A DNA stretch of 34,066 bases from an uncultured Flavobacteriales bacterium (GTDB taxonomy: Bacteria > Bacteroidota > Bacteroidia > CAIKAF01): contig CAILUT010000029.1 of assembly GCA_903837495.1 (NCBI GenBank), positions 1 through 34,066 on the forward strand, written 5' to 3'. Shown here piece by piece: positions 18,379 through 25,355 of the stretch (positions within the stretch are counted from its first letter, which is position 1; every line of letters starts with the position of its first letter). Below the pieces are notes generated by a model, which saw nothing but the letters and a program-made list of their open reading frames with translations, was not told the origin of the DNA and did no database searches. A program made the translations under genes and the position numbers.

Positions 18379-18792
18379 TCATCTTTTGTTGTTGGGACTG
18401 GTCATCAGAGTGATTTTGTATTTCCCTTGAACCCAGACTAGGTCGGCCAATTCCACAAAATACTTGTGGGGCACATTTTCATCGATGGCCAGCTGCACTT
18501 TTGTGTCGGCATTGGCGGGGCCTAGAGTTTCAATCAAAGAAGGCAGAATGGATTCCTTAGCAATGGGATTTCCGTCTAAGGCATATTCAAGTTGTTCACT
18601 GAGGGAAATGACGGGCATTTTATCTTGCGGTCGAGTATCGCTTGAGCTTTTGGGCAGAGATACGTCCATAATGTTGTTGTTCGTAACCAAGGTTGAGAGG
18701 ATTACGAAGAAAATCAACAGCAAAAATACAAGGTCGGTCATCGACGACATATTGAATTCGACGGAGACTTTATTCCGGCTTTTCAAGCTCAT
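18379..18792 (-). CDS. ExbD/TolR-family proton-channel protein
   Basis: A 137-aa partner of the ExbB-like protein. A short cytoplasmic N-terminus leads into a single TM with the essential aspartate in MSSMTDLVFLLLIFF (Asp20). A periplasmic domain follows (VQLAIDENVPHKYFVELADLV). Its ATG overlaps the exbB stop by 4 nt (ATGA), so the two are made in step. It powers the TonB-like protein encoded next. ExbD versus TolR cannot be decided by sequence alone; the gene order exbB-exbD-tonB favours ExbD. Confidence 0.92.
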   Translation of the reverse strand: MSLKSRNKVSVEFNMSSMTDLVFLLLIFFVILSTLVTNNNIMDVSLPKSSSDTRPQDKMPVISLSEQLEYALDGNPIAKESILPSLIETLGPANADTKVQLAIDENVPHKYFVELADLVWVQGKYKITLMTSPNNKR

Positions 18793-19487
18793 GAGGGTTC
18801 GTTTAATAAGTCCAGAAATTCAATGCTACGGGCTTCCATTTTGTACACTACTTTTTCGATGCTGGCAACGAGTAAGTTATAAAAGACATAGGCCAAGATA
18901 CCTACAACCAGACCTGCTACGGTGGTAACCATTGCCTCATAAATACCACCGGCAAGGGCTGAAATAACAACTCCTTGGTCGGAGTTAGCCATATTGAAAA
19001 AGGCTTTAATCATACCGAGTACGGTTCCTAAAAAGCCCAGCATGGGGCCGGCACCGGCGACGGTTGCCAACAAGGCCACACTTCGTTCTAAGCGATACAC
19101 CTCTAGTTTTCCTGTATTTTCGATCGAGGCAGAAATGTCTTGCAGGGGCCTTCCGATGCGGCTAATTCCTTTTTCAATCATTCTGGCGATGGGGCTGTCG
19201 GTGCTTTTGCACAGACCAATGGCAGCATCTATTCTCCCATTCAAAATGCAGTCTCGAATGTTGTTCATGAAATTGGAGTCCTCTTTTCCGGCCTTGCGAA
19301 TGGTCATCATTCGTTCAACGAAAATATAGATGGCCAGCATGCTCATGAGCAACAATGGAATCATAATCCAGCCACCTTTGACAGCTAGATCTAAGACCGA
19401 GATGGTTTTCGGATTGGCGGCTGCTTCAGCAGCCATCGAGGCGGTTTGGGCCGTACCGGCGGTTTCAATTTGAAGAAAAAAGTTCAT
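18789..19487 (-). CDS. MotA/TolQ/ExbB proton-channel family protein
   Basis: A 232-aa inner-membrane protein. A periplasmic alanine-rich N-terminus precedes TM1 (GGWIMIPLLLMSMLAIYIFVE). A cytoplasmic loop with IARMIEKGISRIGRP follows. The conserved pair of TMs carries LLATVAGAGPMLGFLGTV and GIYEAMVTTVAGLVVGI, the channel-forming motifs of ExbB/TolQ. It heads an exbB-exbD-tonB block and lies 34 nt after the dehydrogenase stop, so it may share that transcript. Confidence 0.93.
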   Translation of the reverse strand: MNFFLQIETAGTAQTASMAAEAAANPKTISVLDLAVKGGWIMIPLLLMSMLAIYIFVERMMTIRKAGKEDSNFMNNIRDCILNGRIDAAIGLCKSTDSPIARMIEKGISRIGRPLQDISASIENTGKLEVYRLERSVALLATVAGAGPMLGFLGTVLGMIKAFFNMANSDQGVVISALAGGIYEAMVTTVAGLVVGILAYVFYNLLVASIEKVVYKMEARSIEFLDLLNEPS

Positions 19488-23468: not shown

Positions 23469-25355
23469 TTAGGGTTTCCAAACCAAGCTGGACATCATCC
23501 GGTCTATATCTTGGTTCAGGTAGGTTAGAATAGGAGCAATGCTGTCGTAGTTTGCGGCGTAATTGAAATACAAGCTACCCCGAAGAAAATGCCGAGCCGA
23601 GTCGGTCAAATAAAATTGAACGGGCGTGGCAACGGGACCCAACAATTGAAAAACACGGCCAAAGACCTTTCGTTCGGAGTCAACAAGGGCCCGTTCCTCG
23701 ATGCCTTCGGACATGGTTACGTGGCCTTGATATACCTGTTGGTTGGCGGCATCCAACAATTCGGGCAGATTGTTGGTTACAGGCAGATAGGTCAGGTAAA
23801 TGGTGCTCCGAAAATCGGGATAATCGATATTTAACCAGAGTCCGCCCGGAAATTCGGGGCGCCCGGGGGCCGGTCGAACAACGGCCACCTGAGCAATTTC
23901 AAATTCAAAGGGCCCAGGGTAGTTTAATGCTTTACTGGCATTGCTGGGCAGTTCAATGCGCGGATAGCCCTTTGGTTTGGGTTGGGGCACAACTGCATCG
24001 CAGCTCATCAACGAGAAACCCAAAAGGAAGGCCCAAAAAAGAGCAAGGTCGCCTGTTTTCGCCTTTTCAGCATGTTTTATGTACACTTTGACCCGCTTAA
24101 TTCTTCGCTGGTCGGCCGATTCTACGCAATATTCAATCTTGGGCGTGTTGATTTTAACCCCTTTGGCCGGAAGTTTTTGATGCAAGTGGAGCAGAAGGCC
24201 TGCAATGGTGTCGGCCTCTTCTCCAGCAGGGCCTAGGGCCTCGAAGGGCAAATCCACAATCCGGCACATTTGAATTAGGGTGGTTTTGGCCTCGAACACA
24301 AAGGTGTGTTCGTCCAATTTTGAGTAAACGATTTCTTCGTCGTCGAATTCATCGTTGATCTCGCCAACAATCTCCTCGATGATGTCTTCTAGGGTAATCA
24401 GTCCTGAGCAGCCTCCATATTCATCAACCACAATGGCCATGTGCATCTTCTTTAACTGAAACTCCTTTAAAAGATCATCGATGGGTTTGTTTTCCGGCAC
24501 AAAAAAGGGCTTTCGTGCCAATTGATTCCAATTGAATCCAGCCTGTTCAGATAAATAGGGGATTAAATCTTTGACATACAAGATGCCACTAACTTGGTCT
24601 AAGGATTCGGAATAAACAGGAATTCTGGAGTATCCGCTTTGAAGGATCAACGCTAAAACCTGTTGATAGGATTTTTTGGTTTCAATCCCAACAATGTCGG
24701 TGCGGGGCTTCATGGTTTCGCTGGCGGTAATCTTCCCAAATTCTACGATGCCTTTCCAAATTTTTCGTTCTTCGTCCGAGATTTCAACTCCTTCGGCCAT
24801 GTCAATAACGGCCGAAAGTTCTTCGTTGCTTAAGGTCTGCCCCCCTTTTGTGGCGTTTCCGGTTATTAGTCGGCCGCTGAGCAGAAGCAAACTGCCCAGA
24901 GGGCGGGTAATTAAGCCGACCACAGAAAGAGGGGTGGCCATTAAAACCAGGACTCCTTTGCCCCGATGCGTAGCCAAGATTTTTGGTAAAATTTCTCCAA
25001 AAATTAAAATAATCGAGGTAACTCCTAGGGCTTGGAACGCAAACTGAAGCCAAGACGGCCATGCCGCCAAAAATGGCAAGCCCGAGCTGGCCATAGACGA
25101 CAGCAGCACAATCAGAATGTTGGTGAAGTTGTTGGAGATTAATATGGTGGCCAGCAACCGGTTGGGGTGGGCCAACAGGTTGTTGACTTTTGCAAAGGTT
25201 TTGGGGTGGGTTGTTTCGAGCGCTTCCATGGTTTTGGGAGACACTCCGAAAAACGCAACTTCCGAGGCAGAAATCAATCCAGAAATAAGGAGCAGAGGCA
25301 GCAGAAGCAGAGCGGTTTCTAAAGGCAGGCTGCTGTAACTTAAAGGGTCTTCCAA
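23469..25355 (-). CDS. gldE-gldD: GldE-GldD gliding-motility proteins in one reading frame (apparent fusion)
   Basis: One 628-codon frame. Residues 1 to about 430 are GldE, a CorC/HlyC-type membrane protein. It has the DUF21 transmembrane part (SGLISASEVAFFGV, NNFTNILIVLL, FGEILPKILATH), two CBS domains (MKPRTDIVGIE, GYSRIPVYSESLDQVSGILY, MAIVVDEYGGCSGLITLEDIIEEIVGEI) and the C-terminal CorC domain. A hydrophobic stretch with lipobox LMSC (Cys452) begins the GldD lipoprotein (PKPKGYPRIELP, FEFEIAQVAVV, WLNIDYPDFRSTIYLTYL), about 177 mature residues. In Flavobacterium gldE and gldD are separate adjacent genes after ssb, and the same order is seen here. Either this is a true fusion, or a T6 run at 24035-24040 has lost one base. 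GldD is needed for gliding; the link to T9SS function is family knowledge. Confidence 0.88.
   Translation of the reverse strand: MEDPLSYSSLPLETALLLLPLLLISGLISASEVAFFGVSPKTMEALETTHPKTFAKVNNLLAHPNRLLATILISNNFTNILIVLLSSMASSGLPFLAAWPSWLQFAFQALGVTSIILIFGEILPKILATHRGKGVLVLMATPLSVVGLITRPLGSLLLLSGRLITGNATKGGQTLSNEELSAVIDMAEGVEISDEERKIWKGIVEFGKITASETMKPRTDIVGIETKKSYQQVLALILQSGYSRIPVYSESLDQVSGILYVKDLIPYLSEQAGFNWNQLARKPFFVPENKPIDDLLKEFQLKKMHMAIVVDEYGGCSGLITLEDIIEEIVGEINDEFDDEEIVYSKLDEHTFVFEAKTTLIQMCRIVDLPFEALGPAGEEADTIAGLLLHLHQKLPAKGVKINTPKIEYCVESADQRRIKRVKVYIKHAEKAKTGDLALFWAFLLGFSLMSCDAVVPQPKPKGYPRIELPSNASKALNYPGPFEFEIAQVAVVRPAPGRPEFPGGLWLNIDYPDFRSTIYLTYLPVTNNLPELLDAANQQVYQGHVTMSEGIEERALVDSERKVFGRVFQLLGPVATPVQFYLTDSARHFLRGSLYFNYAANYDSIAPILTYLNQDIDRMMSSLVWKP
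24035..24073 (-). other. Hidden gldD start codon and T6 homopolymer at the gldE-gldD junction
   Basis: On the minus strand an ATG at 24073-24071 opens another frame reading MLKRRKQATLLFF up to a T6 run (24040-24035), then stops shortly after (TGA). With one extra T the frame would run on into WAFLLGFSLMSC and the GldD body. That would give a textbook lipoprotein signal peptide with a KRRK n-region and lipobox. In the sequence as given, GldE reads through instead. An in-frame GTG a few codons upstream of the run could also serve as a separate gldD start. Confidence 0.75.

Follow-up and report, generated by a model that had tools for sequence, protein, structure and literature searches.

A single reading frame for gldE and gldD

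The window analysed here, a whole stretch of 34,066 nucleotides from an uncultured Flavobacteriales bacterium (contig CAILUT010000029.1 of assembly GCA_903837495.1; host genome of 2.5 Mb in 67 contigs), carries gldE and gldD on the minus strand as one open reading frame (ORF) without a stop codon between them (Table 1). Both halves score above the cut-offs of their families: the GldE half matches the full TIGR03520 model across residues 21-426 with 452 bits (curated cut-off, 376), and the GldD half reaches 174 bits against TIGR03512 (curated cut-off, 120) and 170 bits against PF25593 (cut-off, 27). As expected of a GldD, the cysteine of a lipobox (LMSC452) stands directly ahead of the mature domain; the signal itself is internal (residues 437-451 of 628), whereas GldD usually carries it N-terminally in an ORF of its own, an arrangement that lies outside what the curated model's cut-off covers. 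The start of gldE (window 25353-25355) is apparently TTG, followed by acidic, proline-containing residues (LEDP, LDDP, LDIP), and as it is common to the genus and to many fused relatives, it would represent a conserved rare start codon.

Table 1. Features of the gldE-gldD locus, with positions counted in the window
Feature	Position	Strand	Description and basis
gldE-gldD fused ORF	23469..25355	-	628 codons, TTG start, TAA stop
GldE part, residues 21-426	24078..25295	-	CNNM transmembrane domain, CBS, CorC_HlyC domain (cytosolic); domain profiles; solved relatives CorC/CNNM 4hg0, 7m1t
Linker, residues 427-436 (KHAEKAKTGD)	24048..24077	-	Weakly conserved; alignment; low pLDDT
Internal hydrophobic signal segment, residues 437-451 (LALFWAFLLGFSLMS)	24003..24047	-	Sequence; modelled helix 438-451; hydropathy
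Lipobox Cys452 codon	24000..24002	-	Where Lgt is predicted to add lipid and LspA to cut (S451/C452); invariant in fused relatives
Mature GldD part, residues 452-628	23472..24002	-	Domain profiles; the genome's only GldD
T6 run	24035..24040	-	Sequence; missing in nearest relative L004
Hidden out-of-frame ATG and 21-codon frame with stop	24008..24073	-	Judged a chance feature
In-frame GTG (V424)	24084..24086	-	Sole codon from which a separate GldD could start internally; L004 has GTT

Elsewhere in the Bacteroidota, the same two protein families usually have separate genes, which in most relatives adjoin each other in this order; unlike these pairs, the window has one uninterrupted ORF, no separate ATG for GldD, and a GldD signal that is placed internally. 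In Flavobacterium johnsoniae, gldD and gldE are separate genes (Hunnicutt and McBride 2001, as cited in PMC9127263), and the lipoprotein GldD is needed for gliding and to keep GldJ and GldK stable (PMC9127263); the proteins given as required for gliding in PMC8444969 and PMC9127263 include GldD and do not include GldE. A search of the whole genome found no second, separate gldD elsewhere, so the fused GldD is the sole copy. GldB scored above its cut-off in this genome, with a GldJ-like protein just below the cut-off. The genome encodes another CNNM/CorC paralogue at G000:C59:43859-45148 (L037), which shares 32% identity with GldE and has no GldD part, and an ExbB/ExbD-type proton channel pair lies on the same strand downstream of the fusion (window 18379-19487).

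Distribution of the fusion amongst relatives

The same fusion, also without a stop, was present in all five of the other genomes from the genus, at 81, 74, 74, 56, and 55% identity. An even sample of 395 genomes from the class contained at least 26 that were fused without a stop, representing at least seven families and at least 14 genera, a count that is a lower bound taken among the matches listed (down to ~349 bits). No fused genome besides the window's own occurred among the matches listed for the phylum sample, and a genome scan that returned 80 named loci showed no fusion amongst those with both genes resolved. In a phylogenetic tree of GldE and GldD (FastTree) constructed without the joint, the six fused proteins of the genus group as a single clade adjoining unfused genera of the same family, and a minimum of 10 changes of the fused state is needed, with 10 forced by well-supported branches, a figure that combines gains and losses, the direction not being separable.

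A fusion common to the whole genus is more than chance, and its presence in all of the genus relatives, its occurrence across the class, and the at least 10 changes of state together rule out a lost base or a recent indel. Judged against its relatives, GldE-GldD is a true, long-standing gene fusion and not a sequencing error, and the fusion appears to have arisen independently in several other Bacteroidota lineages. A reading of the DNA made from the sequence alone (hereafter the sequence-only reading) had weighed a real fusion against a lost base and a slippage switch; the first of these is the one upheld by the fused state of the five other genus members and of 20 further genomes.

At several Bacteroidota loci (L067, L069, L101, L105, and L072-L079), gldE and gldD share a frame and stand just a stop or a few codons apart, and several pairs of this kind were among the matches listed for the phylum sample. 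Such same-frame pairs are a near neighbour of the fusion.

Sequence evolution and topology of the joint

Between K423, where GldE ends, and P461, the proline at the start of GldD, C452 alone is invariant in an alignment of 24 fused proteins, and the same holds for the columns from position -24 to +2 within each of three separate fused clades. The lipobox has S, G, or A at position -1 in all 25 fusions and a hydrophobic residue at -3 in 24 of 25, a tally for which the automatic choice in L066 fell on the wrong one of two cysteines (the right one was used in the alignment and in the tally of start codons and charge). The mean hydropathy of the fused signal segments resembles that of 165 stand-alone GldD signals. 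The net charge of the n-region is -0.08 in the fusions versus +1.18 in stand-alone GldD, with related sequences treated as independent, and a lower charge in the fusions is expected because a folded cytosolic domain already fixes the orientation.

Amongst the genus members, the joint evolves fast yet remains in frame, with an amino acid change in most codons (e.g., 18 of 28 between L003 and L004); both of its flanks have mainly silent changes between near relatives. The fused L010 and its unfused sister, L188, have flanks that are ~93% identical and differ over the whole linker and signal (~90 bases), with SSC/GE(E/Q)DYT identical in the two, such that just the lipobox and the start of mature GldD are shared at the joint. 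The joint of this pair shows very fast replacement of the signal region. Another genome (L063), at 99.8% identity to L010, has the same fused joint, which is therefore not an error of one assembly. A single-base origin of the fusions was considered and rejected, as L010 and L188, the sole close fused and unfused pair, differ by replacement of the whole joint.

The GldE half shares the CNNM, CBS, and CorC_HlyC domains of the CNNM/CorC magnesium transporter family, from which its solved relatives come, and the usual members of that family are not known to have a lipoprotein domain after these. The CBS and CorC domains of the family are cytosolic, and with the C-terminus of GldE in the cytosol, the helix at residues 438-451 would run from inside to outside, as a normal lipoprotein signal does. 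An AlphaFold model of the fusion (mean pLDDT, 77.5) has this short helix between flexible stretches, followed by a folded GldD domain; the pTM is 0.32 and the placement of the domains in the model is therefore unreliable.

A predicted lipoprotein precursor and the alternatives

Based on the conservation at the joint, GldE-GldD is probably a precursor (polyprotein) that is lipidated at C452 and cut by LspA into GldD and GldE. The single frame seen in the sequence would be translated as one chain of 628 residues, and the GldE part would insert via its CNNM transmembrane domain, with the CBS/CorC fold in the cytosol according to the topology of the CNNM/CorC family. The former GldD signal peptide (residues 437-451) would serve as an internal signal anchor putting GldD in the periplasm, Lgt would place a lipid on Cys452, and LspA would cut between S451 and C452, so that GldD is freed as a lipoprotein and GldE keeps one additional membrane helix at its C-terminus. 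These last three steps are suggested by conservation. A single precursor chain cut in two would thus supply GldE and GldD one to one. Both Lgt and LspA are encoded in the genome.

The lipobox segment might instead be a plain transmembrane helix in a fusion that stays uncut, with GldE inside and GldD tethered permanently outside the inner membrane. The helix predicted at 438-451 with its flexible flanks is compatible with this arrangement and being fused in itself favours tethering, but every fusion retains the cysteine and a G, A, or S at -1 amid free drift of the remaining segment, and a plain anchor needs neither. The strictly kept cysteine points to lipidation and cleavage, and an uncut fusion is unlikely. 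The sequence-only reading had proposed that GldE lies inside, the lipobox segment in the membrane, and GldD outside, a topology that is probably right; its further suggestion of a plain membrane anchor does not fit the kept cysteine. Quite improbable, also, is an internal translation start yielding a normal GldD pre-lipoprotein besides the fused protein. The window has an in-frame GTG at 24086, 28 codons ahead of the cysteine, and a GTG at 28-29 codons, a usual signal length, is found in five of the six genus members; against this, the codon is GTT in the nearest relative, the charge of the n-region is lowered and not retained, and V424 is part of a conserved C-terminal strand of GldE (RRIKRVKV), such that the GTG needs no other reason. 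No ATG, GTG, or TTG is present 17-36 codons ahead of the cysteine in nine of the 25 fusions, while 13 have GTG or TTG only and three have ATG.

The remaining explanations concern the T6 run and the ATG at 24073, which, like the in-frame passage of gldE into gldD over 628 codons and the LMSC lipobox, were located as the earlier reading had described. A normally separate gldE-gldD pair that had been misassembled or misread, or that had recently acquired an indel in the T6 run, would account for the hidden ATG and its KRRK start, one added base away from joining the lipobox. This ATG (24073-24071, minus strand) begins a 21-codon frame, MLKRRKQATLLFFGPSFWVSR, with a stop at 24010-24008, and adding one base would connect the frame to ...LLFFWAFLLGFSLMSC, a good lipoprotein signal that had been taken as the sign of a separate gldD start. 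A one-base insertion will join any upstream out-of-frame ATG to the lipobox, and what counts is how often such an ATG occurs by chance: 28% of codon shuffles of the segment have one, as do 27% of all 40-codon windows in the same ORF, and the hidden ATG is therefore no evidence of a lost start. It is absent from L005, L007, and L008, located elsewhere in L006, and followed by a stop after six codons in L004, and given the chance rate and this lack of conservation, it was rejected as a genuine remnant start. With all six genus genomes fused, at identities to the window protein down to ~55%, and no hidden start conserved amongst them, an error or recent indel is highly improbable and in effect refuted. 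Slippage of the ribosome or polymerase on the T6 run, producing both fused and separate forms, almost certainly does not occur: the window has the run but its nearest relative lacks it, and the genus members do not keep the other frame open.

For GldE-GldD as an LspA-processed precursor, FbcH of Bradyrhizobium, a cytochrome b/c1 precursor, is the nearest known precedent. As in FbcH, a polytopic inner-membrane protein is joined in frame to an exported protein via an internal signal that carries a signal peptidase motif, the cut in GldE-GldD being predicted; FbcH differs in that signal peptidase I is the presumed enzyme and no lipid is attached, whereas the lipobox of GldE-GldD points to Lgt and LspA. 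In the sources searched, mostly outside subscription journals, neither a GldE-GldD fusion nor an internal lipoprotein signal was described, and no paper was found in which LspA cuts behind a large N-terminal domain in the cytosol. On balance, the fusions may well constitute a natural class of LspA-processed polyproteins, repeatedly arisen in the Bacteroidota, in which a polytopic inner-membrane protein delivers a lipoprotein via an internal lipobox signal and GldE and GldD are coupled one to one. The fusion is also a natural system in which to ask if Lgt and LspA can process a signal that lies internally, after a large domain folded in the cytosol, and the repeated fusion of GldE and GldD is comparative evidence that both proteins act together.
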